Origin: a virus
IMG/VR virus record: IMGVR_UViG_3300008954_000024
Coordinates: 25,066 to 89,065 of that record
Reading direction: 5' to 3' (one strand)
Length of the DNA stretch: 64,000 nt
Shown here one piece after another: positions 38,202 through 59,965 of the stretch. Every line of letters starts with the position of its first letter. The first letter of the stretch is position 1. The position numbers and the translations under genes are program-made. The notes beneath the pieces were generated by a model that had not been told where the DNA came from, did no database searches, and saw only the letters and a list, made by a program, of their open reading frames with translations.

Positions 38202-38456
38202 ATGCAGATTGTGAATCGCATAAAGAGTGAAAGCTCTAGTGTGCTTGAAGGCATAGATCTCTTTGTAGGCCCAGCTAAGGATAGACGACTCATTGTAAAG
38301 CCAGGCCTTAAGATAAGACACAAGAAGTCAGGTGTAACTTACACAGTTCAGGCAATAGATCTATCTGATCCACCAAATCCAGTATTGATTTGTAATCGTC
38401 CAGGGTTTGTAATTGAAATCACAAAACAACACTTTAAGGACTATGAGAGGCAATAA
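38202..38456 (+). CDS. Small SH3-like beta protein, unknown function
   Basis: The 84-residue protein has a short N-terminal helix (MQIVNRIKSESSSVLEG) and then strands typical of a small barrel (GLKIRHKKSGVTYTVQAI, PVLICNRPGFVIEI). ATG 38202 has GAGG at eight bases; an in-frame ATG at 38157 would add 15 residues but has no clear ribosome site. It overlaps the SOD-like gene by one base. Not recognised further. Confidence 0.6.
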   Translation: MQIVNRIKSESSSVLEGIDLFVGPAKDRRLIVKPGLKIRHKKSGVTYTVQAIDLSDPPNPVLICNRPGFVIEITKQHFKDYERQ

Positions 38457-39151
38457 TGTCAGACTTTACTAATAAGAATCTGAGAGATAACATACGTGAA
38501 TCGTTAGGGCTCAATGAAAATGAAGAGCTGAATGAAGCGTATGTTGCACAGCTGAAGCAATATAATTTACCGACGGAGCTGTTAAGTGTGGCTAATAAGA
38601 GGAACCACATTGAGCTGTATGAAGGGTATGTTGAAAATTTCAATCGTGTGAGTGCTGAGCTAGATACAGCAGATAGGTCTGCAGCAAATTCTAATCATTC
38701 AGAGTATAGGTCCTTGAAGATTGACGAAGCATACAACATGAATGGAGCATACCTTCATGAGCTTTATTTTTCAAACATAAGTGATCTTCATAGCCAGATA
38801 TCAATGGATTCACTTTCTTATATGCGACTTTCTCGTGACTTTGGGGGTTTTGACAAGTGGCAGGAGGATTTTATCGCATGTTGCATGGCATCTAGATGTG
38901 GATGGGCTGTGACCATTTATAGCACATATCTTCAGAGGTATGTAAATTGTGTTGTTGACCTACACAGCCTGCAGATTCCAATTGGCTCTTACCCAGTCAT
39001 TGTTATGGATGTGTGGCAACATGCTTATTATCGAGATTATTTGAGAGATGCAAGAACATATGTGCATGCAATGATGAAGCAACTTAATTGGAATGTCATC
39101 GAAGAGAGAATTCGTAAGGCTGATAAGATTCAAAAGGCGTTGAGGGCTTGA
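38456..39151 (+). CDS. Fe/Mn superoxide dismutase-like protein with N-terminal helical extension
   Basis: Residues about 40-220 resemble iron/manganese SODs. MDVWQHAYYRDYL near 184-196 matches the family signature DxWxHxYY with Asp and His ligands. YLHELYF near 98-104 supplies another His, and NHIELYEGYVENFN near 49-62 fits the first-helix His. Residues 1-40 are an extra charged segment (NKNLRDNIRESLGLNENEE) absent from SODs and similar to the starts of neighbouring proteins. Activity would remove superoxide, but a structural use of the fold is equally possible. It is coupled to small virion-type genes rather than metabolic ones. Confidence 0.7.
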   Translation: MSDFTNKNLRDNIRESLGLNENEELNEAYVAQLKQYNLPTELLSVANKRNHIELYEGYVENFNRVSAELDTADRSAANSNHSEYRSLKIDEAYNMNGAYLHELYFSNISDLHSQISMDSLSYMRLSRDFGGFDKWQEDFIACCMASRCGWAVTIYSTYLQRYVNCVVDLHSLQIPIGSYPVIVMDVWQHAYYRDYLRDARTYVHAMMKQLNWNVIEERIRKADKIQKALRA

Positions 39152-39153
39152 AG

Positions 39154-39747
39154 ATGGAAATGAATAAAAAAATGATTAGAAAACTCATTCTTGAGGCAAT
39201 GGAAGAGATGTTGTCAGCCGAGGACGAGACTGATAAGACTAGGCTAGGTCTAGATTCTGTCGATGACCAGATAGACTCATTTTTGATAAAATTTGAAAAG
39301 GATTCAATTTCACCTGAGGGTGCGCTTTCAGAGACACGTGTTAGATCCCTGGTTGATCTTTTGTTTGAGCAAGAGGAAGGCGAGGAGGAACCGGATGAAG
39401 AGGAAGAGCCAGAGGTTCCAGAGCCTGAGGATAGCACAAAGATCGATGCCACAGAGCCTGCTGAAGAGATTCAAGCGCTTCCTCTAAACATCGATGCCTT
39501 TACAAAGAGAGTTGCAAGACTTGTAATGAACAATGCTGTTTTGCTTGATGTGAGATCAGTTATTTTGAATAGAGCGAAAAATTATTTGCTTGAAAATTAC
39601 GACCAGGCACATGTTAACCAGATGAGAGAGATACTTGATACACAGTTTGATTTTAATCTGGAAGGCGCGGAAGACACACCTGACGCGCCGTACGCTGTAG
39701 GTGCATATGCCGGCGGCACAGGGGGCCTCGGCGGCGGTGGTGGCTGA
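39154..39747 (+). CDS. Helix-tagged acidic protein, unknown
   Basis: Start MNKKMIRKLILEAMEEML (after two residues) is an amphipathic Leu/Arg/Glu helix of the recurrent tag type. A second tag-like stretch, ETRVRSLVDLLFEQEE, occurs near 60-75. A long Glu/Pro linker follows, then a folded helical part (about 105-165) and a Gly-rich tail ending in GGTGGLGGGGG. ATG 39154 has GAGGG at seven bases. The arrangement suggests two or three separable pieces. No enzyme motif is visible. Confidence 0.65.
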   Translation: MEMNKKMIRKLILEAMEEMLSAEDETDKTRLGLDSVDDQIDSFLIKFEKDSISPEGALSETRVRSLVDLLFEQEEGEEEPDEEEEPEVPEPEDSTKIDATEPAEEIQALPLNIDAFTKRVARLVMNNAVLLDVRSVILNRAKNYLLENYDQAHVNQMREILDTQFDFNLEGAEDTPDAPYAVGAYAGGTGGLGGGGG

Positions 39748-40034
39748 TGTCTGATAAGTACATTGATTTTGAGACAAAAAAGACAATACATTTTAATATT
39801 ACACGTGCCACTCACGCAGAGTTAAGAATCACATGCTTTAAGAAGAGGCTTTCCATGCAAGAGGTATTTGAGGAAGTGTCGCAGAAAATAGCAGCAGGGT
39901 CACCTGATATGATTCACATTCTTGATGATCTTTCACAGAGAAAGCGCAGTAAGACTATTAAGAAGCTATCACAGACAGATGCAGAGTCGCTATTTGATGT
40001 AATTGCGCAGGAGAGCCCGCTCTCAGATGATTAG
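39747..40034 (+). CDS. Ribbon-helix-helix-like small protein
   Basis: The 95-residue protein has one strand and two helices near 13-45 (IHFNITRATHAEL, then LSMQEVFEEVSQKIA), the pattern of CopG/MetJ-type ribbon-helix-helix DNA-binding domains. The C-terminal half is charged and helical. The ATG uses the A of the previous TGA. It could be a transcriptional regulator of the surrounding genes or an antitoxin-like fold, though no toxin is adjacent. Fold call moderate, target unknown. Confidence 0.55.
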   Translation: MSDKYIDFETKKTIHFNITRATHAELRITCFKKRLSMQEVFEEVSQKIAAGSPDMIHILDDLSQRKRSKTIKKLSQTDAESLFDVIAQESPLSDD

Positions 40035-40042
40035 GATTGAAA

Positions 40043-40336
40043 ATGTTTACTAATGTAAAAGAGTTGTTCGCTAGGTTATTCGATAGAGTTTTTACAACTT
40101 CTTCAAAGGTTCAAGAGCTAACCAAGACTGTTAATGAGCTCGAGATAAGAATGTTTAAGCTTGAAGAGATTGTTGTAAATCAAGCATATGTTTTAACGAC
40201 TTACACCAAGGTGCAAGAAGATATAGTTGATCATGTGCTGGGCACTGTGACGAAAGGACACCCTAGGGATAAGATGTCAGCTTCTACCCGAGGAATGATG
40301 ATTCTTTCTGACGACGACGATGATCTTATAAATTAG
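40043..40336 (+). CDS. Small coiled-coil protein, unknown
   Basis: The protein is 97 residues long. KVQELTKTVNELEIRMFKLEEI at about 20-41 (quoted in part: LTKTVNELEIRMFKLEEI) has clear heptad spacing for a coiled coil. The tail is acidic (SDDDDD type). ATG 40043 follows AGGA at six bases. It lies just before a strong promoter-like sequence and the membrane-protein cassette. No function assigned. Confidence 0.6.
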   Translation: MFTNVKELFARLFDRVFTTSSKVQELTKTVNELEIRMFKLEEIVVNQAYVLTTYTKVQEDIVDHVLGTVTKGHPRDKMSASTRGMMILSDDDDDLIN

Positions 40337-40341
40337 TTCAG

Positions 40342-40369
40342 TTTAACTTTTTTAGTAGCTTGTTATAAT
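40342..40369 (+). promoter_or_regulatory. sigma-70-like promoter before the lysis-like cassette
   Basis: TTTAAC (40342-40347) and TATAAT (40364-40369) are 16 bases apart, 26 bases before ATG 40395, with GGAGG as ribosome site. Confidence 0.5.
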
Positions 40370-40394
40370 TTGTCATGCTTTTGGAGGTGATATT

Positions 40395-40673
40395 ATGAAA
40401 AAGCTAAAAGAACTTTTGAGCAAGTGGAAGGTTCACATTTCTGTGGTGGGCGGTGCGCTTGTGATAGCAACTGCATATGGTCAGTGTACAGTTGAGCCCG
40501 ATCTTGACGCGTTAGAGGAGTCTGTAGAGGAAGCTACAGAAACAACTACTAGCGCTGATGAGACTACCACAGCTGCAACAACAGCAGCTGATGAGACAAC
40601 TACAACATCGACCGGTAACGAGACTACTAGTGATGATGCAAGTGAAGCAACCGCAGAGTCCAGCGAGGACTAG
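40395..40673 (+). CDS. Short membrane-anchored Thr/Glu-rich protein
   Basis: The N-terminal 30 residues contain Lys residues and a hydrophobic segment (VVGGALVIATAYG) followed by Cys. The residue before Cys is Gln, so it is not a standard lipobox. The remaining 60 residues are low complexity, almost only Thr, Ser, Glu, Asp and Ala, and probably extended in the periplasm. First gene of a four-gene membrane cassette with an endolysin-independent position. A cell-envelope spacer or lysis accessory role is inferred. Confidence 0.6.
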   Translation: MKKLKELLSKWKVHISVVGGALVIATAYGQCTVEPDLDALEESVEEATETTTSADETTTAATTAADETTTTSTGNETTSDDASEATAESSED

Positions 40674-40674
40674 A

Positions 40675-40860
40675 ATGAAAGGTTTCACTGATCGAGTTCT
40701 CGAAAAGGTGGTTTCTAGAAAGCTTCTAGTGTTCGCTACAGCGACGGGCTTAATGGTTTGGGATGGTCTTGATTCTGAAACTTGGGGCATGATTGCAATT
40801 TGCTATATTGGTGGCCAGGCCGTTGTAGATGCGATGACAGCCTATAGACACGGTCGTTAG
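40675..40860 (+). CDS. Holin-like small membrane protein
   Basis: The 61-residue protein has two likely membrane segments (KLLVFATATGLMVWDGL and WGMIAICYIGGQAVVDAM) separated by a short turn, and a positively charged C-terminus. This is the class II holin layout, and proteins of this type with a YIGGQ motif are often annotated as phage holins. ATG 40675 follows GAGGA. It would make the membrane holes that release the endolysin encoded at 8243. Neighbouring spanin-like genes support this. Confidence 0.65.
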   Translation: MKGFTDRVLEKVVSRKLLVFATATGLMVWDGLDSETWGMIAICYIGGQAVVDAMTAYRHGR

Positions 40861-40862
40861 TG

Positions 40863-41710: not shown

Positions 41711-41720
41711 AACTACCGCA

Positions 41721-43516: not shown

Positions 43517-43921
43517 ATGAAATCGCTGATAGATCTTGTGGACAAAAGATTACTAGAGGGTAGTTCTTTGCCAAGTAGTGTGGGTCAGACGCTGGGGTCA
43601 CTGAAGACCACACTACCTGATCCACTGCCTATCGAGGTTTCAAAGCCAGAATGGGTCATCTTACAAGAGCCTGAAAGAATTGCCAAAAGTTTTGAATTTG
43701 ATAGATTTGATGACATGAGATACTTTATTGATGAATTATTACTAGAGCAAGAAAGAATGAATCATCACGCTTTGATTCAAATAGAGCATAGAGTGGTTAG
43801 CATAGAGTCATATACACATTCAATAAATGCAGTTACAGAGCAAGATCTAATATTGGCCAAATTTTGTGATGAGATATTTGAGGATACAAAATATTTCATC
43901 GAGAGAAGCGAAGATGTCTAG
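43517..43921 (+). CDS. Pterin-4a-carbinolamine dehydratase-like protein with helix tag
   Basis: Residues about 45-134 have the dehydratase pattern: PERIAKSFEFDRFDDMRYF, then a helix with MNHHAL (the paired His, about 80-85), VVSIESYTH and VTEQDLILAKFCDEI. In the classic enzyme a third catalytic His lies in the VxI strand; here that position is Ser, so activity is doubtful. The first 15 residues (MKSLIDLVDKRLLEG) form a helix like those of its neighbours. It starts one base after the previous stop, and seven bases overlap with the next gene. Confidence 0.6.
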   Translation: MKSLIDLVDKRLLEGSSLPSSVGQTLGSLKTTLPDPLPIEVSKPEWVILQEPERIAKSFEFDRFDDMRYFIDELLLEQERMNHHALIQIEHRVVSIESYTHSINAVTEQDLILAKFCDEIFEDTKYFIERSEDV

Positions 43922-44302: not shown

Positions 44303-44473
44303 ATGAGTCAAGAGTTTGAATTTGAAAAATTTATAAATGATATCTGTGAAAAGGAATCATCTGCTGCTAAGAATGAAAATCACACACAGGAGGAGGAGAC
44401 TCCTCAAAGAAGATATAATAAGCTATATCGTGAACGTTGGCAGAATAGAATCTGGTACGGAGAAAAGAAATGA
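44303..44473 (+). CDS. Small 56-residue basic-tailed protein
   Basis: A short gene with ATG 44303 seven bases after GAGG and a stop that overlaps the next ATG (ATGA). The first half is acidic and helical (QEFEFEKFINDICEKE); the second ends YRERWQNRIWYGEKK, a basic and aromatic tail I recall from other short phage proteins. The ribosome site, overlap and codon composition support a real gene. No function known. Confidence 0.6.
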   Translation: MSQEFEFEKFINDICEKESSAAKNENHTQEEETPQRRYNKLYRERWQNRIWYGEKK

Positions 44474-45186
44474 GTGACATAAGACTTGATAGTGCTAGAG
44501 ATGTTGAGCTATTTCTCAAAATTTTAGCAGAAGAGAGTATCAAGGAGGCACAACGCTCAATTTCGTCAACTGATCCAATGCAAGGACAGATTGAGAAGCA
44601 GATGAAGCAAGATAAGTCAATATACGATCTTAGCGAACAGGATGGCCTTCCTTCTGAAGAAGAAGAGGCCACGAAGCCCACTGACGACACTGAGTCTGTT
44701 TCGACTGATGATGCTGAGCCAGTGGAAGATGACTCTGGAGAGGGCCTTGAGGTGTCACTCGATAGTGTTGCAGATAGTATTAAGACACTAAGGAGTGGGC
44801 GATCTGTCGATGACAGAGAAATCAAAGCACAAATGCGTGCCTACTTTGACAGGCTAGAAGCACCAGAGAGACAAGCACTGCAGGCATTTATGAGTGCGTT
44901 TTCAAAAATTTTAACAAACAATGTAACTGGGGCTGATGCACAAGATCCAAGTGATCCACCTTTGAATATTGCTATGTCAGGAGGCGGTGCTAAGCCTCCT
45001 GAACCTAAGGTTTCAGCAGAGCCAGAAAAAGAACCGGCTGCTGCTGAAACAGCTGAGGATGAAGAGGAAGAGGAAGAAGAGAAAGCGGGTGCAGAGGATA
45101 CAACACCCCCTGTTCCAATTACACCCGGCGGTCCGCAACGTGTTGCTGAGATTAGAAGGCGAGTTCAAAAGTTAATGAGCAGATAG
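44470..45186 (+). CDS. Helix-tagged acidic protein, scaffold-like
   Basis: The 238-residue protein starts with DVELFLKILAEESIKEAQ (about 10-27), a tag-type helix. A very acidic linker follows, then a helical domain near 90-150 (VADSIKTLRSGRS, EIKAQMRAYFDRL, ALQAFMSAFSKIL), another Glu/Ala/Pro-rich linker, and a basic C-terminus (VAEIRRRVQKLMSR). The alternation of acidic, unstructured and short helical parts resembles phage scaffold or core proteins. Function is not established. Confidence 0.62.
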   Translation: MSDIRLDSARDVELFLKILAEESIKEAQRSISSTDPMQGQIEKQMKQDKSIYDLSEQDGLPSEEEEATKPTDDTESVSTDDAEPVEDDSGEGLEVSLDSVADSIKTLRSGRSVDDREIKAQMRAYFDRLEAPERQALQAFMSAFSKILTNNVTGADAQDPSDPPLNIAMSGGGAKPPEPKVSAEPEKEPAAAETAEDEEEEEEEKAGAEDTTPPVPITPGGPQRVAEIRRRVQKLMSR

Positions 45187-45498: not shown

Positions 45499-46758
45499 AT
45501 GAGATCAGAAGAGCTTTTAAGACAGCTTATTCGTGAATCTATGCTAAGGCTTTACGATGGAACGGAAGCAGAATATGGCTCGACAAGTCACGTCGAAGAC
45601 CTTGATAGAATAATCAACGAGCTTCAGCACTTAAAAAGGACGCTTAGGAGTGGTCCAAAAAGACTTCAAAATAGAAAAGAGATACACAGAATTCAAAGTG
45701 CAATCGAGGCAATTCGATATCTCAGAAATGGTGCTAAAAGATTGGGAATTAGAAGCGGCTTGATCGCTGAGGGAGGATTAAAGATTCCCGGCGGTTCCGA
45801 TAAAAAGTTAAATCCCACCCTAGTGGGCCAGGCAATAAAGGTGTATGAGAATCTCTTGGGACAGTGGAATTCATATCTTGAGTCAACAGGTCATGATCCT
45901 GTGAAGCCAATTAAGCCTGTAGGGTCTGTAAGCTATTATTCACAGGATGCTGCAGATAGACCTAGTGCAGAATATGGAGATATTGATTATCTGGTAGAGC
46001 TTCCCGTAACTCACCGAGAGGGAGATGATGAGAAAGTCAGGCGACAATCTGAAAATGCAGCCAAGCGAGAATATGAGCAATTGTTTGTTGATTTTTTAAA
46101 TTCTGCTAGACCTGCTGAAGTTGATATTGAGCTAACACTAAAACCGGGCTCTAGCCCATATATGGTCATTGTAACACTGCCTGGTGGAGAGCTAGTCCAA
46201 GTAGACACAGTCACGACGTATCCGAGATACGCAGAGTGGATGAAGGGTAGGTATACACCAGAGCGTGGTGTCAAGGGATACCTGATAGGAAACATATATA
46301 AGTCTCTTGGTGACCATCTGGTGATGTCTGTCGGTACCCAGGGGGTGGCAATTAAGTCTAGGGAGGGAAAGAGAGTACCTGCTAAGTTTCAAAAAGATGT
46401 GAAGATTGAAAATGTGAGTACAGATATCGGCAATTTTCTGGTAGATATTGCTGCCTACCTTATGGGAGATACTCTAGATCCTCATCCGCTTTTGGTTGGA
46501 AATCCTGGTGTTGACAAAGACAATGTAGACATGAGATCTCTTGTGAAGGGAATAAAGGGATTAGCTCTGACTCTTGAGACTGGAGGGGACTATGACGCGC
46601 TGGATATGATGAATGCCATTAAAGCACACTATGAGGAAAATCTTAGAAGAAATGTAGAGCAGAAAAAAGCCAGAGGCTTAAATGAGAAAGACTACCAGAA
46701 GCTGCTAAAGATGAATGATGCTGCTGTTAGAATGATGTCGGAGGAGTTTGGCCTCTAA
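45499..46758 (+). CDS. Pol-beta-type nucleotidyltransferase with N-terminal helix tag
   Basis: The 419-residue protein begins SEELLRQLIRESMLRLYDG, one of the clearest tag helices. A nucleotidyltransferase core follows: GSVSYYSQ near 143-150, GDIDYLVELP near 159-168 with the paired Asp, and LVQVDTVTT near 230-238 with the third acidic residue. This is the order of the polymerase-beta superfamily that includes CCA-adding, poly(A) and repair enzymes. The C-terminal 150 residues are helical. It is directly followed by a phosphoesterase and a second, larger nucleotidyltransferase gene, overlapping by one base. Substrate unknown. Confidence 0.72.
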   Translation: MRSEELLRQLIRESMLRLYDGTEAEYGSTSHVEDLDRIINELQHLKRTLRSGPKRLQNRKEIHRIQSAIEAIRYLRNGAKRLGIRSGLIAEGGLKIPGGSDKKLNPTLVGQAIKVYENLLGQWNSYLESTGHDPVKPIKPVGSVSYYSQDAADRPSAEYGDIDYLVELPVTHREGDDEKVRRQSENAAKREYEQLFVDFLNSARPAEVDIELTLKPGSSPYMVIVTLPGGELVQVDTVTTYPRYAEWMKGRYTPERGVKGYLIGNIYKSLGDHLVMSVGTQGVAIKSREGKRVPAKFQKDVKIENVSTDIGNFLVDIAAYLMGDTLDPHPLLVGNPGVDKDNVDMRSLVKGIKGLALTLETGGDYDALDMMNAIKAHYEENLRRNVEQKKARGLNEKDYQKLLKMNDAAVRMMSEEFGL

Positions 46759-47405
46759 TGGACTTTTTCACATCAGACTTACATTTCGGACATAGAAATA
46801 TTATCAAGCATTGTGATAGACCATTTTCGAATGTTGATGAGATGAATAGTGCATTGATTGACAATTGGAATGGTGTGGTTGGCAACGATGATAGAGTGAT
46901 AGTTGTGGGTGACATGTTTTTGTGTGGTAAGCAAAAAATGCCAGAGATAATGTCACAGCTAAAAGGCTACAAGGTTCTTGTAAAGGGAAATCATGATCTG
47001 AGTCTCAAGAAGATGAAGGAGGTTGGATTTGATGAGTGCCATAGAAAGATGAATTACACACTGCCAAATGGACAAAAAGCACTAGTGCAGCACCATCCTG
47101 TGCCCGAGAGGCTATTTTCTGATCATGATCTTTTAATTCATGGACATATTCATATATCACCCAGGACTAGGGGAAAGAGGATCAATGTTAGCTGTGACAT
47201 CTGGGGCTTCTCGCCAATTCATGTTGATAGGCTGTGTGATCTTGTCTCGACAAAGAAGAGTGAAACGTCAAATGAGTGGTGTGATATCCGCCTGGATGGT
47301 GAAACACTTCGGGCACATTTATCAATTAATATGCAAGATTTTCCCGGCGCTGTCGAGGAAATATATAGAGTGATGCAAGGGCACTGGCCGAGGAGAAGAG
47401 AATGA
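46758..47405 (+). CDS. Calcineurin-like metallophosphoesterase
   Basis: The 215-residue enzyme has all metal-binding blocks: FTSDLHFGHRN near 4-14, VVGDMF near 49-54, VKGNHDLS near 75-82, LVQHHPVP near 111-118 and IHGHIH near 128-133. The GHxH and NHD blocks are intact, so activity as a phosphodiesterase or phosphatase is likely. The last 60 residues are not recognised. It overlaps the preceding nucleotidyltransferase (TAATG) and the following 1429-residue enzyme by four bases, so three nucleic-acid-type enzymes are translated together. Confidence 0.85.
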   Translation: MDFFTSDLHFGHRNIIKHCDRPFSNVDEMNSALIDNWNGVVGNDDRVIVVGDMFLCGKQKMPEIMSQLKGYKVLVKGNHDLSLKKMKEVGFDECHRKMNYTLPNGQKALVQHHPVPERLFSDHDLLIHGHIHISPRTRGKRINVSCDIWGFSPIHVDRLCDLVSTKKSETSNEWCDIRLDGETLRAHLSINMQDFPGAVEEIYRVMQGHWPRRRE

Positions 47406-50400
47406 AGCTTGGACTTTACGGCGGAGGATTCAAGCCCTTCACAACTGGACATTTTGCAAGGTTGGCTGACGCGATACGCGATAATGACAAGGTGTATCTA
47501 TTTTACGGCATGCAGCAAGTGGAGCCCATTAGATACGGGAAGAGGGGTAAGCCGCTGGCACCTCGACAGAAGTTTAGAAGAATAGGCAAGACAAAGAGAG
47601 AGTATGACGAGAAAGTTGCTGAGTCTATCTTTCAAATATACAAGACTGCACTCGATAGAATCCCAGGCGTCGAGGTAGTTCTGGTGCAAAGTCAGGCCAG
47701 GGATGAACAGGGAGATCTCGCTGCAGTTCGAGCACCCGTAACAGCGATATTCAAGAATCTTGAGGAGTTTGTTGAGAATCCCGACATGTATGAAAAGGTA
47801 ACTATCTATGGAGATAAATCTTCGATGATGCCTTACATGAAAAGCCCAAAATTTAAAGACTTTGTGACAGCGGGAAAGATCCAATTTGGCGGCGCCATTC
47901 CCGAAAGCCCAGAAGACTACCTGGATCCAGATAGGTTAGATAGCCTAATGGCCCGCGCCGAAGAAGAAGCGCGTGATGCACTAAGGGGATATTATGCTGG
48001 GTTAGAAGGAGAAGCTCGAAAGGACCTGTCTGACGAGGATATTGCACAGTTGCAGTCTGTTAGAGGTACTCGAGTTAGAGATCTCGCATCTTCTCCAGAG
48101 ACAGCAGAAGAAGCCAAGCGATATCTTCCTCCTTTTCTTAACAATGATGAAAAGGACAAGATCATTGAAATTCTTCTGGGCAGTATAAATGAGCCAGCCA
48201 TTTCAGAAATTGTTATAAAAAGAGCTGCAACAAAGTTTTCTGCTATAAAAATTCTATCAGAGCAAGATGATAAAGACACCGCTAAGCCTGGTGAGGAAGC
48301 ACACATATACAATCTGTATGAAGAACTAGGAATGCCTCTCAGCGATATTATTGAGATTGGCCGTCTAGGGCTTGAAGGAAAACTAGAGAATGTTCAGGAA
48401 AAAATGGATGGTCAGTTTCTAGCTTTCACAGTTGTTGATGGACAGCTAAGATTTTTTACTAAGATGGACCTTCAGAGCCAGAGGGCAAAGGATCGACGGC
48501 TAGAGCTAATTCGAGCAGGTGGAGCTGGCGGCGGAATGACGCTAAATCAGATTATGTCTGCATATACGGGAGATAGATCAAACATTGCAGAAGGTTTTGC
48601 AATTGCCTATGAGGCACTAGAGCCCGTAGCATTACCATATCAGGATTCACTCTTTAGAAATGGAGAGGTTGTGATGGTATCACAGATAATGGTTTCAAAG
48701 AATCCTAATACAATTTTATATGATGAGGACTCTCTAAGGACAGTTCTTGCCGTTTCTCTGACAGAAGAGCCTGCTAACCAGGATGCACTGTCATCCTTCA
48801 TGTCAGAGATGCGGGAGTCTTCAACAGACGCTTTTACTATGGACAAGGTGCCGACGGCCTCTCTTATGAAAGGTCTTAAAGAGGATGATGGTGCACTTGA
48901 GCAACTAGAGAAAGACTTAGAGTCAGTTGTTGGAGAGGTTGGGCTTTCAATTGGCAATAATACAGTTGGTGATTATGTTAAAGCGAGGCTAGAGGAGTTT
49001 ATTCGTGAGAAATATAAATTTATTCCTGATGATCTGATTCCTGATGTCGCTGACAGATTTATGACAGGAAAGGGAAAAGTTGCACTACGACTTAAGAAGA
49101 TGGTATCCCCCGAAGACTATCAGCGCTTTCGATCGCTCGACAAAGTAAAGACTAGAGTAGTTCAAGAAGCAATTGTTCCGCTTGAGAATATCATTCAGCG
49201 ACTGGGTATTATGATTATTGATAAGCTTGATCTTGCCCTCCAGGCTAGTAATCAGGAAGATCTGCTAGGATTTGTTAAAGGTGTTAGGGGTGCATTTGAA
49301 TCTGGGTTTAACTTTGGATTGGGATCTGAAGATGAGAAGACACTAGAGGGGATTCGTGTAGCCCTGGCGAGGCTTGAAGCTAATGAAGATTTATTTACTC
49401 GCGCCACAGAGGGCATTGTCTTTACACACAATAATAAGACCTATAAGTTAACCGGTCTTTTTACACCCATTAATAGATTGCGTGGATTCTTTTCATACGG
49501 CAAGGCAAAAATGTCAGACCGAGAAGGTGATAAAGATCTAAGTGAAACAGTGAATAAGATTTTAATGAAGATTCTCTCCGAGGGTGGAAAGGCCTTTAAA
49601 AAGAAGGATGATCAGGGAAATAAGATTGTTGCAACATCAGATGATAGAATATCCAGACAGCAGGCTGATAGGATAATCCAAGATCTTGAGAAGAATCTAC
49701 TGGAACCGTCAGGCATGAAGTTCTTACCTGTGGGTAGTACAGCAACTGACAAGCAAATGATCGGTGATATTGATCTTGTTGTAAGTGAGCCTGATAAGGA
49801 AACACTATACCAAAAGATGTTGAGTTCGCCATACCTCAGTGATGAATTGGTCGAAGGTGTACCGCGTGTGTTAAAGGTGGGACAGCTTATCGCCATAATG
49901 GTCAAGGATGCAGAAACAGGTCAATTATTTCAGGTTGACCTGTTTCCAAGTGTTAGCATGGATGATACATCCTGGGAACTTTCTGGTGGGGGAGAAGGAA
50001 AGGTTAAGGGTGAATATCATAAGCTAATGTTTTCTCTTCTAGCTAAAATAAAAGGTGAGAGAGAGTCAACATCAGACAGGGTTATTAAGTACACAATAGC
50101 TTTTCCAGGCGGACTACGTGAAAAAGTTAACGGTGTCGAAGATGTATCAGGAAGGATACCTGATCCTGATGATTACCTTCCTAAGCTAGGCGTGCAGGTA
50201 GAGGATAAGAATTCTGTCAGAACCTTTGAGGATCTCTTGTCTCATATGCTGATGGCGAACACACCTGAATTTAGAGAAGCTCTAGAAAGATTTGAGGAAT
50301 ATATTGGACACAGATTAAATGCCAGCTCGGAGAAGGTAAGGGATGAGGCCCGCAAGGCCATCGATGTGATCAATGCTACAATTTCTAAAGCCCCATCAGA

Positions 50401-51691
50401 AAGTGAATTAGCTGAGCTGCGCTTTAGACAAAAGGTTAGAGAGCTGCTATACGAGAGTTCTGAGACATATGAGAGCGCGAAATCCTTCACTGAAAAGTCA
50501 AGAGTTATCTTTGACATTCTTAAATCACCTGATTTTTTCGGAAATGACATACAGAAAATAATCAATGTGTCAGGTGCAAACAAACTAGTTAGGCTTGGCT
50601 TGGCTCCAGGTGTCGATGATCGTCATGATATCAATAAGATATTAAACCTTATGTACGATAGATTATCACCTGATCGCACGAGGGGCATCATTGAGCTTGC
50701 ACCTGATGAGCATCCTAACCCCAGTAGCAAGTATCCAGCATATGTCATGCCTGATCTCGATGACCTCATGGTGATTTTTGGAATTGCTGGAGTCACCGGA
50801 GGCCAACGGAAGGCAGGATATGTGTATGAGATTGATGTAGGTGAGAATCTCAAGGCAGCTGGTCTCCAAGTACAAAGCGGAGAGGATAACTCTGTATCTG
50901 ATGTCTATGTTCCCATGGCCAGCGGAATGCTCGGCATCGAGGTAAAGCTTCCAAACGCTCAAGCAGGAGAGCCCACACTAAAGTATGACTTTGACAAAGG
51001 TGAGTTTTTTGCTTCAAACCCTAAGCCGCAAAACCAAGATATTGCAGATCTTATAAACATGGATCCAACAGCAGCTGAGGTGAACAGGAGGTTGATACTT
51101 GTAAGGGATGTGATAAATGACTATCGGTCTAAGAATGACCTGCCTGAGATAGAGAGCATCCTCGCTAAGATAAGCAAAGAGGAGTATAGGGATGTGGTAT
51201 TACCCGCTCTTCGAAGCATGGGAGAGAATATTTCAGGCGCGTTGCTTGCTGTTTACACTGTTTCAGCAGATGTGCTCCGGAAGTATTACATGCTTAAAAA
51301 GGCAGGTCTAGTTCAGGTGAAGGGAAAAGGCTTGTTTCACCTGCATCCAGACTTTAAGATCACACTAACAGATGAGAATGGTAACAGCAGATCATCAGAG
51401 TTTTTTGACTTCTCACCTGCACAGGGTGCAGTTTATTTTAGAAATTTTAGAGGTGGAAATTATGGTATCAGATCTCAGCTTAAAAATTCGCCGTTACGTA
51501 GACTAAAACAGTCTGGTATTGATCTTGATGCAGAGAGGGACCGCGAGGAGTTTGCTAAGCTTGTGTCAACTTTAAATCTTCCAGACCCAAGATCAATTGC
51601 TGCTGAGAGCTCTCCAGGATCTACAAATGAGGTTGCAAGTGTGACTCGGGCACTACAGGGCTTAATTTCAAGGTACAATGGAAGCATCTGA
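47402..51691 (+). CDS. 1429-residue multi-enzyme: HxGH nucleotidyltransferase, ligase-like, pol-beta NTase and PD-(D/E)xK-like domains
   Basis: Four catalytic signatures are visible. GGGFKPFTTGHF near 7-18 with RGTRVRDL near 221-228 is a cytidylyl/adenylyltransferase fold. QEKMDGQFLAF near 332-342 has the KxDG nucleotidylation motif of DNA/RNA ligases, followed by EGFAIAYEAL and GEVVMVSQIM. PVGSTATDKQMIGDIDLVV near 778-796 with QVDLFPS near 846 is a pol-beta nucleotidyltransferase. SDVYVPMASGMLGIEVKLPN near 1167-1186 is a nuclease-like D...ExK. An internal tag-like helix, LRFRQKVRELLYESSE, lies near 1003-1018. The whole may be a nucleic-acid end-repair or ligation machine, or a virion polyprotein cleaved into parts. 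Confidence 0.65.
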   Translation: MKLGLYGGGFKPFTTGHFARLADAIRDNDKVYLFYGMQQVEPIRYGKRGKPLAPRQKFRRIGKTKREYDEKVAESIFQIYKTALDRIPGVEVVLVQSQARDEQGDLAAVRAPVTAIFKNLEEFVENPDMYEKVTIYGDKSSMMPYMKSPKFKDFVTAGKIQFGGAIPESPEDYLDPDRLDSLMARAEEEARDALRGYYAGLEGEARKDLSDEDIAQLQSVRGTRVRDLASSPETAEEAKRYLPPFLNNDEKDKIIEILLGSINEPAISEIVIKRAATKFSAIKILSEQDDKDTAKPGEEAHIYNLYEELGMPLSDIIEIGRLGLEGKLENVQEKMDGQFLAFTVVDGQLRFFTKMDLQSQRAKDRRLELIRAGGAGGGMTLNQIMSAYTGDRSNIAEGFAIAYEALEPVALPYQDSLFRNGEVVMVSQIMVSKNPNTILYDEDSLRTVLAVSLTEEPANQDALSSFMSEMRESSTDAFTMDKVPTASLMKGLKEDDGALEQLEKDLESVVGEVGLSIGNNTVGDYVKARLEEFIREKYKFIPDDLIPDVADRFMTGKGKVALRLKKMVSPEDYQRFRSLDKVKTRVVQEAIVPLENIIQRLGIMIIDKLDLALQASNQEDLLGFVKGVRGAFESGFNFGLGSEDEKTLEGIRVALARLEANEDLFTRATEGIVFTHNNKTYKLTGLFTPINRLRGFFSYGKAKMSDREGDKDLSETVNKILMKILSEGGKAFKKKDDQGNKIVATSDDRISRQQADRIIQDLEKNLLEPSGMKFLPVGSTATDKQMIGDIDLVVSEPDKETLYQKMLSSPYLSDELVEGVPRVLKVGQLIAIMVKDAETGQLFQVDLFPSVSMDDTSWELSGGGEGKVKGEYHKLMFSLLAKIKGERESTSDRVIKYTIAFPGGLREKVNGVEDVSGRIPDPDDYLPKLGVQVEDKNSVRTFEDLLSHMLMANTPEFREALERFEEYIGHRLNASSEKVRDEARKAIDVINATISKAPSESELAELRFRQKVRELLYESSETYESAKSFTEKSRVIFDILKSPDFFGNDIQKIINVSGANKLVRLGLAPGVDDRHDINKILNLMYDRLSPDRTRGIIELAPDEHPNPSSKYPAYVMPDLDDLMVIFGIAGVTGGQRKAGYVYEIDVGENLKAAGLQVQSGEDNSVSDVYVPMASGMLGIEVKLPNAQAGEPTLKYDFDKGEFFASNPKPQNQDIADLINMDPTAAEVNRRLILVRDVINDYRSKNDLPEIESILAKISKEEYRDVVLPALRSMGENISGALLAVYTVSADVLRKYYMLKKAGLVQVKGKGLFHLHPDFKITLTDENGNSRSSEFFDFSPAQGAVYFRNFRGGNYGIRSQLKNSPLRRLKQSGIDLDAERDREEFAKLVSTLNLPDPRSIAAESSPGSTNEVASVTRALQGLISRYNGSI

Positions 51692-51959
51692 CCAAGGAAT
51701 GAATAGGATCTTAGAGCAGCTACGCTTTGTTGCATCCTATGTTGGAGATTGCGATGACTGGGTGACTGTCAAGAAGGAGATTCTTCGAGGAATACCCTCA
51801 CCGCTGCGTAAAAGATTTTCTCGTCGTGATTCGAGGACAAAGGAGCAGTGGTTGAATGATTTTGAGAAGGAGCTAATTAATTATTATAGGGAGCAGACAG
51901 GTGTTGACCTAAAGCTTCGTACACTTGCAGAGAGAAGGGAGATGTTTGGTGTCCTCTGA
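51678..51959 (+). CDS. Unidentified basic helical protein
   Basis: The 93-residue protein overlaps the end of the multi-enzyme gene by 14 bases. It is rich in Arg, Glu and Lys, with helices LEQLRFVASYVG and WLNDFEKELINYYREQ. A second in-frame ATG at 51699 lacks ribosome-site spacing. Not recognised. Its overlap with both neighbours points to one operon with the enzyme cluster. Confidence 0.6.
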   Translation: MEASDQGMNRILEQLRFVASYVGDCDDWVTVKKEILRGIPSPLRKRFSRRDSRTKEQWLNDFEKELINYYREQTGVDLKLRTLAERREMFGVL

Positions 51960-53177: not shown

Positions 53178-53582
53178 ATGAATTTTGATATAAACAGACT
53201 TGCCAAGCTAGCTGGTCTGCCTGGTGATGAGCAGGCAGGTATGCTGCAAGAAGCAGGAAATCGTAGTAAGCGAGAAGATCCCGGTCTAGAGTCATATCTA
53301 GATGCTGAGGGTGGCGAAGATACTCTCAACGAAGATTCACAAGCAGATGATGAAACTCTTGAAATAGATGATGGTGAGCTTCGTGAGGCGGTTGCACGAG
53401 CTGAGAAAGAAAGACTTGACGAAGCAAGGCTTCGGGAAGCAGTCAGAGGAGAAATCCAGAGCATCCTAGAAGAACTGGGTGTTTACAGATCTGATAGCTC
53501 CTGGCTTTATGGGGATGATCAGCCTGAGAACAGCAGAGAAGGCCTTGTTAACATGATGTTTCCAGGAATTGGCTTTAAGTAG
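53178..53582 (+). CDS. Acidic helical protein with internal tag-like helix
   Basis: The 134-residue protein begins FDINRLAKLAGLPG, a start I recall from T4-like marine phage proteins of unknown role. The centre is acidic (TLNEDSQADDETLEIDDGEL), and RLREAVRGEIQSILEELG near 92-109 resembles the tag helix found at the start of other proteins here. A strong terminator follows. ATG 53178 has GGAGG upstream. A scaffold or core protein is a reasonable guess only. Confidence 0.6.
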   Translation: MNFDINRLAKLAGLPGDEQAGMLQEAGNRSKREDPGLESYLDAEGGEDTLNEDSQADDETLEIDDGELREAVARAEKERLDEARLREAVRGEIQSILEELGVYRSDSSWLYGDDQPENSREGLVNMMFPGIGFK

Positions 53583-54086: not shown

Positions 54087-55706
<1,620 letters not shown>

Positions 55707-55749: not shown

Positions 55750-56130
55750 ATGCTAGAAGAGTCAAAACTTAGATTAGTTGTGGGCCACATTCTTAAAGAA
55801 CAGGAAGAGCTGCGTCTTAAAAGAGATCTCGTTAATGTCACATGTCTTTTGACTATGACAACAAACGCTCATGTACCTGACACACTTACACGTGTTCGAG
55901 TGCTGCCAACAGTTTCTGTTGTAGGCCAGAAGGAACCCGTACAAAGAACGCCAAAGGGAAAGACGATGCTTGAGATTTATGTAAAGTACTTGCCCAGATC
56001 TGGTAGTGACTACAAGAATCTTTTGTCCTTAAGCAAGCTAATCAAGAGACTACCTGGTGTAAAAATGGTCAGAGTTTTGACTATGGATGGCAGAAGGGTC
56101 ACATTTAAAGGCAAGCCGATCGTAGTGTGA
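55750..56130 (+). CDS. Helix-tagged small protein, unknown
   Basis: The 126-residue protein starts with EESKLRLVVGHILKEQEELR, a tag-type helix, then two beta-rich stretches (TVSVVGQKEPVQRT, LEIYVKYLPRSG) and VRVLTMDGRRVTFKGKPIVV at the end. It has no known motif. The tag fits the family of proteins found between 38.5 and 60 kb. It overlaps the next gene by one base if the latter starts at ATG 56130. Confidence 0.6.
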   Translation: MLEESKLRLVVGHILKEQEELRLKRDLVNVTCLLTMTTNAHVPDTLTRVRVLPTVSVVGQKEPVQRTPKGKTMLEIYVKYLPRSGSDYKNLLSLSKLIKRLPGVKMVRVLTMDGRRVTFKGKPIVV

Positions 56131-56363
56131 TGAAAAAGCCTAAAGCTAGGACAGCAACGATAGTTGCAGCATATTTGTCAGACTTGCAGTTGGGATTGCG
56201 CTGGGCGAGATCAAACAAGGCAATAAAATCTGTAGGAAAAATTAGAGAGATCGGTTCCAAATCTGGAAAGCGCTACGCAGTTAAGGTTCGTGTAAGAACT
56301 AGTAAGCAAGATCTTCGAAATCTCATTAAAGATAGGTTCGGAAGCTTTATAAACGTTGTCTAA
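56130..56363 (+). CDS. Small basic protein, unknown
   Basis: The 77-residue Lys/Arg-rich protein has the pattern TATIVAAYLSDLQLGLRWAR, a strand (RYAVKVRVRTS) and a terminal helix (DLRNLIKDRFGSFINVV). A DNA- or RNA-binding role would fit its charge but no motif proves it. ATG 56130 sits three bases after an alternative GTG. Not recognised. Confidence 0.55.
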   Translation: MKKPKARTATIVAAYLSDLQLGLRWARSNKAIKSVGKIREIGSKSGKRYAVKVRVRTSKQDLRNLIKDRFGSFINVV

Positions 56364-56768: not shown

Positions 56769-57539
56769 ATGTCACAATCGCTCGATTCATACTTTAAAGA
56801 TGTTTCTAAGACTAATCTTCTCACACGTGAGGAGGAAGTAATGCTCTCACAAAGAATTGAAAAGGGAGATCAAGAAGCAAGAAGCATAATGATTGAATCT
56901 AACCTACGACTTGCGATTAGTATTGCTAAAAAATACTATAGAAGTGGGTGCAATATCGAGGATCTTATTCAAGAGTCAAATATCGGCCTAATGAAAGCTG
57001 TAGAAAAGTTTGATTGGCGCAGAGGATTCAAGTTCAGTACATATGCTAGCTGGTGGATTAAACAGTCTGTGTGTCGTCATATCGGAACAAGTAGGAATAC
57101 TGTTAAGGTTCCGGCACATACCGCATCACTGGCTTATAAGATTCAAGCAGTTACGAAGGAATATGAGGAAGATCTGGGTCAAAAGCCAAGCATTGCTGAA
57201 CTGTCAGATATCTTGGGTGTATCTGAGAATATGATTAACGCAAGCCTCGCATCAATTAAGTTTCAAAATATGATTTCTATTGATGGAACAATTGGAAACA
57301 AGGATGGTAACAGATCTATTTCCGAAGTCGTTCCTGACTTTAATCAGATTGACATAGACGGAATAATTGACAAGGAAAAGATCTTGCTCGTGGTTCGTGA
57401 TTGCCTGCAAAGGCTCAGTCCCAGGGAGGAGCAAATTCTTCGTCTACGCTTTGGAATCGCAGAGAATTTTAATGATACCAGTGACTTTAATTTGACAGGA
57501 TCAGAAGCTAAATTAGTATCACAAAAGGAGGGCAAGTAA
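56769..57539 (+). CDS. Sigma-70-family factor lacking region 4.2
   Basis: Regions 1.2 (SYFKDVSKTNLLTREEEV, about 7-24), 2.1-2.4 (NLRLAISIAKKYY, NIEDLIQESNIGLMKAVE, FKFSTYASWWIKQSVCR) and 3 are intact, so core binding and -10 recognition should work. Region 4.1 is present (LSPREEQILRLRFGI near 217-231), but the protein ends 25 residues later and the helix-turn-helix that reads the -35 is missing. Length 256 is close to RpoH minus this domain. T4 gp55 is also a sigma without -35 recognition. The next gene, which begins at the base after the stop, encodes a helix-turn-helix that could complete it. ATG 56769 has an AGGA site. Confidence 0.88.
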   Translation: MSQSLDSYFKDVSKTNLLTREEEVMLSQRIEKGDQEARSIMIESNLRLAISIAKKYYRSGCNIEDLIQESNIGLMKAVEKFDWRRGFKFSTYASWWIKQSVCRHIGTSRNTVKVPAHTASLAYKIQAVTKEYEEDLGQKPSIAELSDILGVSENMINASLASIKFQNMISIDGTIGNKDGNRSISEVVPDFNQIDIDGIIDKEKILLVVRDCLQRLSPREEQILRLRFGIAENFNDTSDFNLTGSEAKLVSQKEGK

Positions 57540-57824
57540 ATGTCAATGCCAAAGGGATTTAAGACAACACATGGATATGCAACAGTTAGAGCTTCTGAAA
57601 GTGGCTTGGGCTATCGTGAAATTGCAGAACATATGACAGACAGTGGAGATAAAATGAATCACTCCACTGCTCGAAATATTTTTCTTTCAGCGATGTCTAA
57701 GTTTGCTACAAATGCTTGCTCACTATATGATGCTCAGCCAACTAGAGAAAATATTAAACGTATTTCTGCAGACCCAAGATTCCAGTCAGCTATTCTGGAT
57801 ATGATTAAGGAGATGGATATTTAA
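57540..57824 (+). CDS. Small helix-turn-helix protein, candidate sigma region 4.2 partner
   Basis: The 94-residue protein contains GLGYREIAEHMTDSGDK and MNHSTARNIFLSAMSKFA near 22-56, the two-helix pattern of sigma region 4.2 (compare the usual LEEIG...VTRERVRQIEAKAL). The remaining half is unremarkable. ATG 57540 immediately follows the sigma stop, so the two are translationally coupled. It may supply -35 recognition as a separate subunit, act like T4 gp33, or regulate other genes. HTH call by eye; partnership is inferred. Confidence 0.65.
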   Translation: MSMPKGFKTTHGYATVRASESGLGYREIAEHMTDSGDKMNHSTARNIFLSAMSKFATNACSLYDAQPTRENIKRISADPRFQSAILDMIKEMDI

Positions 57825-57825
57825 G
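57816..57825 (+). promoter_or_regulatory. Putative late promoter element (GATATTTAAG)
   Basis: One base from the fibre-gene motif; it overlaps the HTH gene stop codon and lies 63 bases upstream of the gene at 57888. Confidence 0.35.
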
Positions 57826-57887
57826 AGTCGCAGTTATGATTGCATAGTGTGGCATAATTATTTCTGATGTGACATGAGGAGTTTGTT

Positions 57888-58334
57888 ATGGGAATGAGCT
57901 GGGATTTTTTTACTAAGCGAAGGCGAGTTGATCCTGAGACATTTATCAGGCAACACAAGATAAGAACATATGAGGATTTTGTGAGTGCTCTTGTTAGAAG
58001 GGGTGTTTCACCACCTACACAGGAAGTAATTGCTTCCCTGCTTTCAGAGTATGCACTTGGAGACGATGATCTCTGGGACGCATTTCGACCAGAAGCTCCT
58101 CCAACATGGGATGACCTTCGTCCTGTAGCTCAAGAGGAACCCAAGGTAGAGCCAGAGGTAGAAGAGATTAAAGTAGAGTCAAAGGTAGAAGAGCCGCAGA
58201 AAAAGCTAGTGTCACCATCTCCACCGAAGAAGGTGAAGAAAGTTGCTGAAAAGAAGAAAACAAAAAGCACAACAACCAAACCGACGGCAAAGAAATCGAG
58301 AACATCCAGAAAAAAGACATCCACAGCAAGCTAA
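57888..58334 (+). CDS. Unknown protein with long Lys-rich tail, possible frameshift donor
   Basis: Residues 1-75 appear folded (SWDFFTKRRRVDPETFI, YEDFVSALVRRGVSPPTQE). Residues 76-148 are a Glu/Lys/Pro then Lys/Ser/Thr-rich disordered tail like that of DNA-binding proteins. The slippery sequence A AAA AAG (58310-58316) is in frame six codons before the stop, and a -1 slip would read into the methyltransferase frame. GAGGAG precedes the ATG. Confidence 0.6.
   Translation: MGMSWDFFTKRRRVDPETFIRQHKIRTYEDFVSALVRRGVSPPTQEVIASLLSEYALGDDDLWDAFRPEAPPTWDDLRPVAQEEPKVEPEVEEIKVESKVEEPQKKLVSPSPPKKVKKVAEKKKTKSTTTKPTAKKSRTSRKKTSTAS
58310..58316 (+). other. Candidate -1 ribosomal frameshift site A_AAA_AAG
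   Basis: The codons AAA and AAG of the upstream gene are 58311-58313 and 58314-58316, preceded by A. A slip to -1 enters the reading frame of the methyltransferase, which is open through this point up to GTG 58352. A weak AAGCT...AGCTT hairpin starts 12 bases downstream. A Shine-Dalgarno-like stimulator is not obvious. Confidence 0.35.
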
Positions 58335-58351
58335 CAGAGCTTTGGAATGAG

Positions 58352-59023
58352 GTGTCACCTGGCTGGAGACATATTAAGCAGATCGGTGACGCAGTTAGAA
58401 AGAAGAAGTATTACACACAGACAGCATTCCAAAAATGCCTAAATGAGTGTGAGCTAGCACGTGTGCATAGTGTTCTTGACTGGGGCCCTGGATCTGGCTG
58501 GACATCAGAAATGCTCTCTCCGGAGACAGACATTCACCTTGTTGATGTGTCTAGTGAGGTGATTGACGTTGCGAAAAAGTCAATTCCGCATGCAACAACA
58601 GATGTAATTGTTGATAAGCCCACATTTAATCGAGCTATTAGAGGCTTGATTAAGAAGCGCTTTGATATGATTATTTCATTCTCTGTCATTTACCACTTTC
58701 CATCATTTGAATACTTTGAAGCAATTGCAAATTGCTGGAGAGTGATATCGCCAGAGTACATTGTTATCAAAACAATGATAACCGACGTGAACACGTGGGA
58801 GAGATCGTGTTATAAAGAATATGCAGATTCAGAGAATTTTCTCAGAGGCTTGATTTTGTCGGAGATAGATCTTGTTAGCCAGTTTCCAGAGCACAAGGTG
58901 ATATTTCGAGCTCGTGATGTTGATGTGATCCCAGGGTTGCTGGGAAAAAAGCCTAAGAAGATAACAGCACCAGGTATGCCTGAATACACATCTATGCTTT
59001 ATGTGCTGCACAAGGTTCAATAA
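58352..59023 (+). CDS. SAM-dependent methyltransferase-like protein
   Basis: SVLDWGPGSGWTSEML near residues 40-55 is the SAM-binding motif I, with DIHLVDVSSE near 60-69 as the following acidic strand, and DMIISFSVIYHFPS near 106-119 as motif IV. No target-recognition domain is evident, so the substrate may be a small molecule, sugar or protein. GTG 58352 has only a weak ribosome site; the frame is open upstream to 58250 without ATG, GTG or TTG, which raises the possibility of synthesis by frameshift from the preceding gene. Length is 223 residues from that GTG. Confidence 0.7.
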   Translation: MSPGWRHIKQIGDAVRKKKYYTQTAFQKCLNECELARVHSVLDWGPGSGWTSEMLSPETDIHLVDVSSEVIDVAKKSIPHATTDVIVDKPTFNRAIRGLIKKRFDMIISFSVIYHFPSFEYFEAIANCWRVISPEYIVIKTMITDVNTWERSCYKEYADSENFLRGLILSEIDLVSQFPEHKVIFRARDVDVIPGLLGKKPKKITAPGMPEYTSMLYVLHKVQ

Positions 59024-59025
59024 GA

Positions 59026-59253
59026 ATGAGCTTGAGTCAAGAACACTATAGTTATTTACCAGGAACTCTCGTCAAAAACGAGAGGGATGATGAACTAGGA
59101 GTAATCATTTGTCAGGATGAGCCTCATAAGCTCTATTGGCGAGTTTTAACAGCAGGCGGGATGAAAACATGGTCGCAACACAATCTGCAGAGAGTCGAAA
59201 ATGAAAGAGCCCAAGCTGCTAACAGAAAACGCATGGCTCGAAGAGACGACTGA
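59026..59253 (+). CDS. Small SH3-like barrel protein, unknown
   Basis: The 75-residue protein starts right after the methyltransferase. YLPGTLVKNERDDELGVII and LYWRVLTAGGMKTWSQHNL suggest a five-stranded SH3-like barrel similar in type to that at 61169. It overlaps the next gene by 53 bases. Function unknown. Confidence 0.6.
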   Translation: MSLSQEHYSYLPGTLVKNERDDELGVIICQDEPHKLYWRVLTAGGMKTWSQHNLQRVENERAQAANRKRMARRDD

Positions 59254-59452
59254 CTCAATTGTTATAATGGTAGACAGAATATCTATCGCGTTTTTAATTG
59301 AGGAATTCCTCGACTTTTGTGATGAGATGGATGAGATTCGCTCCAAACTCATGGCTGACCCTAGATTTGTCATGGCACGGATTAAGTCCGGAGATAAAAA
59401 CGTCGATTACCTTACAAGAAAGATAACAGTAGATGATGAGGATTACAACTAG
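59201..59452 (+). CDS. Small acidic helical protein, unknown
   Basis: The 83-residue protein overlaps the previous gene by 53 bases in another frame. It is acidic with helices SIAFLIEEFLDFCDEMDEIR and a short charged tail. The long overlap makes the start at ATG 59201 less certain, but the frame continues coherently past the previous stop. Not recognised. Confidence 0.5.
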   Translation: MKEPKLLTENAWLEETTDSIVIMVDRISIAFLIEEFLDFCDEMDEIRSKLMADPRFVMARIKSGDKNVDYLTRKITVDDEDYN

Positions 59453-59480
59453 CAGAACTGGTGAAAATACACATCAAAGA

Positions 59481-59491
59481 GAATATTTAAT
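59481..59491 (+). promoter_or_regulatory. Putative late promoter element (GAATATTTAAT)
   Basis: In the 63-base gap before the tagged protein at 59516, ending 25 bases upstream of its start. Confidence 0.45.
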
Positions 59492-59515
59492 AATGTTTTG
59501 CAGGGGCACACCACA

Positions 59516-59965
59516 ATGAAAATTAGCAAAGATCAACTACGAAGAATCATCAGAGAGGAGCTAGAGAGGCACCTTTTACCTGAGGCATCTGCTGAGGAGA
59601 TCAGAAAGATGTATCCTCCAGGTGGGCCAGATCACGTTGCAGCAAAGATGGTTCGTCTGGCAGCGAAATTTCCTGCCGGTGCAGACTCTCAATATGCGGC
59701 AGCAGTAGATTCCGACTCCGAAGCATACAATCCGAAACACGTACTTGATGCAGCTAAGCAGAAAGGTGTAACGCCTGATTCAGCATTTGAAGATCATCTT
59801 CTTAGCTCCAAGCTCGCAGCCGCTGTCAAGGGGATGCTTAAAGGCCACATCGCAGCAGGCGATATGTCTAAAACAGACCTTATTAACTATGTTGTCAAAA
59901 ATCGGGGACAATTTCCCAGCGACGAAGTTCAGAAAGTAACGATGGCATGGGCAAAATCTAACTAG
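59516..59965 (+). CDS. Helix-tagged protein, unknown
   Basis: The protein starts MKISKDQLRRIIREELERH, the clearest tag helix in the window. The other 130 residues are Ala/Lys/Asp-rich helices with no known motif (KMVRLAAKFPAG, KLAAAVKGMLKGHIAAG). ATG 59516 with AGGGG upstream is preferred over a TTG at 59498. Similar starts are abundant in marine phage proteins as I recall them. It has a late-type promoter of its own. Confidence 0.62.
   Translation: MKISKDQLRRIIREELERHLLPEASAEEIRKMYPPGGPDHVAAKMVRLAAKFPAGADSQYAAAVDSDSEAYNPKHVLDAAKQKGVTPDSAFEDHLLSSKLAAAVKGMLKGHIAAGDMSKTDLINYVVKNRGQFPSDEVQKVTMAWAKSN

Follow-up and report, generated by a model that had tools for sequence, protein, structure and literature searches.

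Why should proteins with unrelated bodies begin with the same short amphipathic helix? The question is raised by a 64,000-nucleotide stretch of DNA, analyzed whole and here called the window, which is part of the 89,065-base record IMGVR_UViG_3300008954_000024 from an uncultured T4-like virus. A sequence-only reading of the window had listed nine such proteins and had suggested that the helix is a shared signal for packaging into the prohead. Our comparisons of this helix, or tag, with other N termini, with capsid proteins, and with known head-import signals make it probable that it is a leader for prohead import, akin to the capsid targeting sequence (CTS) of T4, and that the prohead protease removes it.

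A shared tag at the N termini of unrelated proteins

The consensus of the tag, designated class A, is M-K-I-T-x-x-x-L-R-x-L-I-R/K-E. Training of a 13-column profile used 30 protein families, all of them from contigs other than those of the window phage and its nearest relative (contig G020). Met-side columns were omitted, and N-terminal position was not built into the profile. Among IMG/VR stretches matched, at least 598 of at least 600 encode a relative of the prohead protease, and the best 80 loci were kept.

Across all relatives (window and training phages included), 204 of 2,619 non-redundant N termini reached 11 bits or more, compared with 13 when sequences were reversed. The bodies of these 204 proteins form 79 clusters (BLAST, 1e-3), several of which appear by eye to be native sequence rather than tags, e.g., the protease, the presumed scaffold, and peptide deformylase. 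A scan of the genome and related phages, as the sequence-only reading had advised, recovers the tag on many different proteins. At 10 bits or more, ten phages summed gave 100 matches in 1,283 N termini, a total that includes the 30 training families; the reversed count was 22 and the shuffled count about 8. Two phages outside the training set gave 14 in 244, with counts of 4 after reversal and 1.4 after shuffling. In the window phage, 7 of 120 N termini match. Its reversed sequences give 3, shuffling gives a mean of 0.7 over 20 rounds, and internal segments predict 1.2. Two of the seven lie outside the window, on a near-identical contig described below. Tagged N termini number 25 of 158 in contig G008 (4 reversed) and 13 of 55 in contig G019 (3 reversed). 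A C-terminal version of the tag is weak (20 of 2,165 versus 8 reversed).

The most independent test uses 33 proteins picked solely by the start M[KR][ILV][TS], a pattern chosen after tags had been seen. In this Met-anchored set, Leu8 is present in 27 of 33 proteins, Arg9 in 24, Ile12 in 22, and Glu14 in 20. These columns, together with the count of 204 versus 13, bear on the proposal that the tags are no more alike than random amphipathic helices. Three of the nine proteins originally listed do fail the profile, and the window phage alone gives just 7 real matches versus 3 reversed. Reversal retains both composition and helical amphipathicity, so the comparison answers the refutation test that had been set for the tag, and chance likeness is very unlikely, close to negligible. 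By these sequence comparisons, the tag is real and widespread, and its N-terminal placement on unrelated bodies is non-random.

Two other approaches were set aside. Unbiased motif discovery under the zero-or-one-occurrence-per-sequence (ZOOPS) model, applied to 115 N termini of one phage, recovered some tags among noise and was too weak to use. A loose regular expression from T4 positions was dropped as evidence because it matched 12 real versus 10 reversed N termini of the window phage (shuffled mean, 5.2). Searches of cultured phages with the 419-residue protein, the 157-residue protein, and two 25-residue tags gave no match, a result that says little for the short queries.

Resemblance to the presumed capsid maturation junction

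Tail genes lie in the first 25 kb of the record (the tail sheath identified by search, others by eye). A search of the record itself for gp23, but not for protease, portal, or terminase, found no capsid gene above the family cut-off. The IMG/VR contig G001 (114,967 bases) extends past the record and is identical to it where compared (the 149-residue protein, the tail sheath, and the 419-residue protein). This contig encodes a gp23 capsid protein (gp23 family, 4.6e-68) and a gp21-type protease whose homologs are annotated as prohead proteases. A portal and a large terminase were recognized on it by eye from position and sequence, as was a presumed scaffold of 489 residues between the protease and capsid genes. 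The two tagged proteins outside the window (L078:431-904 and L078:105-362) are encoded between the protease and presumed scaffold genes.

The presumed maturation junction of the capsid protein, QLLRE↓S (the arrow marks the scissile bond), resembles the tag core QLIRE↓S. For 60 distinct capsid proteins, taken from 85 matches after 5'-open and duplicate sequences were dropped, the residues before the presumed site follow QA-x-Q-[LVMA]-[LI]-[RK]-E. A profile of residues 5-17 of the 33 Met-anchored proteins, built without the capsid protein, was slid along each of them. Out of about 640 positions, the junction took first rank in 49 proteins and was within the top three in all 60. With a profile of just the four tags quoted in the sequence-only reading, 37 proteins had the junction at rank one and 52 had it among their three best positions; in the window phage's own 646-residue capsid protein it again came first. 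Because the capsid proteins are homologous, the 60 ranks are not independent tests. A further result of 57 of 60 was set aside as partly circular, since the regular expression used for training came from the capsid junction. A regular expression taken from the capsid junction has 99 matches in 1,628 proteins within the 8-residue bin from offset 8, versus 2 for its reverse (homologs not collapsed). When 12 of the capsid proteins were aligned with those of Flavobacterium phage immuto, Microcystis phage Mel-JY01, and T4, the junction fell on FLTE↓A of T4 gp23. Immuto and Mel-JY01 are the nearest cultured relatives among the matches listed.

Correspondence with the T4 capsid targeting sequence

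In T4, the ten N-terminal residues of internal protein IPIII are enough for packaging. Within the CTS, residues 4 and 7 are important for targeting and residues 8 and 10 for processing, and a protein with Asp at residue 10 is targeted and remains uncut (PMC9026906). IPIII begins MKTYQEFIAEA, so residues 4, 7, 8, and 10 correspond to P7, P4, P3, and P1, counted back from the scissile bond. The conserved positions of the tag share this targeting register: in the Met-anchored set, 31 of the 33 proteins have a hydrophobic residue at P7, 27 have one at P4, and 28 at P3 (residue 12), and 20 have Glu at P1, such that most members carry the L/I-x-E ending of gp21-type sites. The vertex protein gp24 of T4 starts MAKINELLRES, and its motif suggests that it would be cut after Glu-10; PMC5694885 reports a propeptide of T4 length.

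The tag is therefore similar to the T4 CTS and to the gp24 and Alt propeptides in being N-terminal and short, in preceding unrelated bodies, in its hydrophobic P7 and P4, and in its L/I-x-E end, and the phage also has the gp21/gp23 machinery (on the near-identical contig G001). Unlike the T4 CTS, the tag comprises about 14 residues, is usually basic at P6 and P2, has a core resembling the capsid junction, and occurs on a much larger set of proteins that includes enzymes; its targeting and cleavage are predicted from sequence.

In the giant phages phiKZ, 201phi2-1, and SPN3US, a gp21-related protease likewise cuts head proteins on the C-terminal side of Glu. However, the phiKZ-type comparison, also offered in the sequence-only reading, fits less well. 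Giant-phage propeptides are much longer than those of T4 and are cut at A-x-E (SPN3US) or S/A/G-x-E (phiKZ), according to PMC5694885, whereas the leader here has about 14 residues and L/I/V at P3. The evidence, all of it from sequence, best supports prohead targeting of the kind seen for T4 internal proteins, judging from the protease and gp23 genes, the gene neighbors, the capsid junction, and the CTS register.

A helix of this kind might instead bind a partner outside the head, such as host RNA polymerase, the membrane, or the replication machinery, with its likeness to the capsid junction being incidental. Amphipathic helices are generic binding elements, and P1 is variable in some members. 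We nonetheless regard this explanation as quite improbable given the rank of the capsid junction with profiles that lack it, the T4 register, and the two members encoded beside the protease gene.

Under the T4-type reading, the hydrophobic face of the tag (P7 and P4) would dock its protein on the assembling core or shell while the prohead is being built. A gp21-type prohead protease would then cleave the L-I-R/K-E core on the C-terminal side of its Glu, as is presumed for QLLRE↓S of the capsid protein. The freed body would stay inside the head and be ejected with the DNA. We infer each of these elements: the capsid cleavage site, docking, cutting of the tag, residence in the virion, and ejection.

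Leaders encoded in the window

The candidate leaders in the window are as follows, with scores from the 13-column profile.

38456..38500, + strand: class A leader of a superoxide dismutase (SOD), residues 1-15, MSDFTNKNLRDNIRE↓S; 15.4 bits
38528..38536, + strand: second candidate cleavage site in the SOD leader, L-N-E27↓A, before the fold; E27 invariant in 6/6
39154..39195, + strand: class A leader MEMNKKMIRKLILE↓A of an acidic 197-residue protein; 12.0 bits
41746..41805, + strand: divergent leader ...LLRILNE↓D of a 589-residue protein; no profile match; L/I/M-x-E in 4/4 diverged relatives
43517..43558, + strand: weak leader ...KRLLE↓G of a pterin-4a-carbinolamine dehydratase; no profile match; L/I/M-x-E in 3/4 diverged relatives
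44470..44532, + strand: divergent leader ...FLKILAE↓E of an acidic 238-residue protein; no profile match; L/I/M-x-E in 4/4 diverged relatives
45499..45537, + strand: class A leader MRSEELLRQLIRE↓S of a 419-residue protein; 21.2 bits
51949..52002, + strand: class A leader ...QLKHIVRD LLSE; 10.0 bits
53178..53252, + strand: class B leader MNFDINRLAKLAGL...MLQE↓A; likeness to the C terminus of the presumed scaffold
55750..55800, + strand: marginal leader ...VVGHILKE↓Q of a 126-residue protein; 8.0 bits in an overlapping register; L/I/M-x-E in 2/2 diverged relatives
59516..59557, + strand: class A leader MKISKDQLRRIIRE↓E of a 149-residue protein; 23.9 bits, the best match in the window

Of the nine proteins first proposed, those at 59516, 45499, 38456, 39154, and 51949 hold up at 10 bits or more, 55750 is marginal, and 41746, 44470, and 43517 do not match the profile. 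The protein at 38456, at first called weak, is among the best, and 41746 and 44470, called good, fail the profile.

Several leaders are retained in homologs. LILE of the 39154 leader is kept in the G020 and G014 homologs, the 44470 leader follows FL[KR][IL][LI][AS]EE in five of six sequences (its own included), and the N-terminal sites of 41746 relatives include MVE, LQE, and LAE. In the leader at 51949, the expected P1 is occupied by Asp, with L-S-E four residues further; its relative in the G020 contig (L161) reads IVRN LLSE, with Asn at P1. More broadly, L/I/M-x-E occurs at residues 6-29 in 34 of 39 relatives from ten tagged families (class B included; 2 to 7 contigs each), compared with 94 of 348 in 71 other families (Mann-Whitney p 2.7e-6), when the window phage and its nearest relative are left out. 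Four head-gene families have it in 28 of 28. The 51949 and 59516 families were omitted from this test because one relative was found for each.

Among 36 sequences drawn from 65 known homologs of the 157-residue tagged protein beside the protease, nine columns are invariant, and the tag accounts for five of them. AlphaFold2 models the tag of this protein as a helix at residues 6-26 (predicted local distance difference test [pLDDT] block means of 82, 92, and 67), with no structure from there to residue 63. A helix followed by an unstructured linker, as modeled, suits a removable leader.

A second leader class resembling the end of the presumed scaffold

The leader at 53178 belongs to a different class, B. 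Its family has LAG[LIF] followed by L-x-E-[AS], with a variable middle residue, in five of five sequences (its own included). Presumed scaffolds end in RWxxLAG[ILV] in 83 of 85 cases (loci of one contig not collapsed). Read most simply, the 53178 leader would imitate the scaffold's end in order to dock at the same place. In immuto, two leaders, RMQKLAGIITE↓S and RMQFLAGIITE↓S, accompany a scaffold-position protein that ends RWQKLAGIIK. Neither T4 gp22 nor the annotated scaffold of Pelagibacter phage HTVC008M has an LAG ending, and class B is therefore not general in T4-like phages.

Besides its two class B leaders, immuto (NC_055915) has five class A matches in 227 proteins, versus none reversed. 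Unlike those of the window phage, its other phi-phi-x-E leaders are more varied, and its capsid junction is QIVSE↓A. No description of the immuto leaders was found in the literature. HTVC008M gave no class A match in 59 proteins (50 kb of 147).

Superoxide dismutase and other predicted cargo

Two further features of the window concern the proteins that carry tags.

38456..39151, + strand: Fe/Mn superoxide dismutase, 231 residues, predicted cargo; Pfam Sod_Fe_C 2.7e-18; PDB 1coj 2.8e-34
1..250, + strand: 3' end of the gene for a 580-residue protein (L003:4573-6315); two internal class A copies, both upstream of the window

The SOD fold aligns to 1coj from residue 36. Directly before it, E27 lies in the context [LV]-x-E-[AS] in six of six sequences. 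AlphaFold2 predicts a helix at residues 5-17 and no structure at 18-44, with low confidence (mean pLDDT 58; leader blocks 42-50). The SOD with its N-terminal extension is found in six phage contigs. Its metal-ligand blocks are retained by eye in the 1coj alignment, and the G007 homolog lacks the D-x-W-x-H block.

The claim that several tagged proteins are enzymes stands for two of the nine, 38456 and 43517 (the latter a pterin-4a-carbinolamine dehydratase, Pfam 5.5e-16), and not for the other seven, which have no Pfam enzyme family above the cut-off. A Pfam search covered 67 of the 79 cluster representatives, the other 12 having been set aside by eye as native sequence or doubtful. It identified superoxide dismutase, NifU domain, phage lysozyme, LysM, PrkA kinase, and AAA domain, one member each; peptide deformylase also matched and is probably a false tag. 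The other representatives tested have no Pfam family at E 0.001.

The 580-residue protein has complete class A copies at residues 399 (18.5 bits) and 477 (15.8 bits). Of its two homologs, one has internal copies and one has none. The protein could be cut into pieces inside the prohead if these copies act as sites. Its start is a helix similar to the tag.

Such internal copies are also what would be expected if the tag belonged to core or scaffold parts of the prohead that fall to the protease, rather than to cargo for the cell. The 157-residue and 85-residue tagged proteins are located among head genes, and T4 core proteins are cut into fragments (PMC9026906). However, the tagged bodies include an enzyme fold, that of SOD, with an extra leader ahead of it, and in this phage more than 63 kb of the record separates the tagged genes of the window from the capsid-gene end. 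We consider this explanation unlikely, although it has more to recommend it than a partner outside the head.

Weighing the import-leader reading

Several observations weigh against a T4-type import leader. No virion proteomics or cleavage data were found for phages of this clade, and the scaffold is presumed from gene position, not homology. P1 is not Glu in 13 of the 33 Met-anchored proteins, which would therefore need another site or stay uncut. The leader is altered in some homologs (45499 in G014, SOD in G007, and 39154 in G003 and G008). The permuted control E-phi-phi-[RK] reaches 67 matches in the same offset-8 bin as the capsid-junction expression (homologs not collapsed). The reversed form of L/I/M-x-E is also frequent, in 23 of 39 tagged relatives, 125 of 348 from other families, and 22 of 28 head-gene sequences, as expected of Glu/Leu-rich helices, and the excess in tagged families is thus partly one of composition. 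Co-variation of P2 between tag and capsid junction is not clear in immuto and Mel-JY01. Finally, 13 genes of the T4 head stretch gave no match at 11 bits (the internal proteins were not scored); for this reason, and because the tag is so short, homology to the T4 CTS is not shown.

A broader proposal, which we put forward tentatively at somewhat below even chances, is a head-import code with two addresses. Class A would copy the capsid junction and class B the scaffold end, both ending in a protease site, and together they would load up to dozens of unrelated proteins, including SOD, for delivery to the host. The principle is already known from the T4 CTS. We did not find the repertoire, the junction match, the scaffold mimic, or the enzyme cargo in print in the open-access literature. 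If the tag does act as an import leader, sequence would show which hypothetical proteins of a large uncultured T4-like clade are carried in the virion and are the first to reach the cell, and these proteins would gain a common function class as injected effectors or early protectors. The leaders would also offer new loading tags for engineered phage heads, with immuto as a cultured phage for testing.

Other observations

In contig G019, six adjacent small genes (L186:404-2328) all have class A at their start and have bodies without BLAST likeness to each other. A 77-residue protein in the window (56130-56363) has a class A-like copy, SKQDLRNLIKDRF, near its C terminus (15.3 bits). Mel-JY01 encodes a 639-residue protein, annotated as cytidylyltransferase-like, with the leader-like start MGKLINILLSE. 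In the window, a 1,429-residue protein (47402-51691) has by eye a nucleotidyltransferase-like start, and the chaperones DnaJ, DnaK, and GroEL are recognized by eye at 25957-28920 and 54093-55706. At L002:4348-10605, two tail-sheath-like genes lie side by side, the second recognized by eye.

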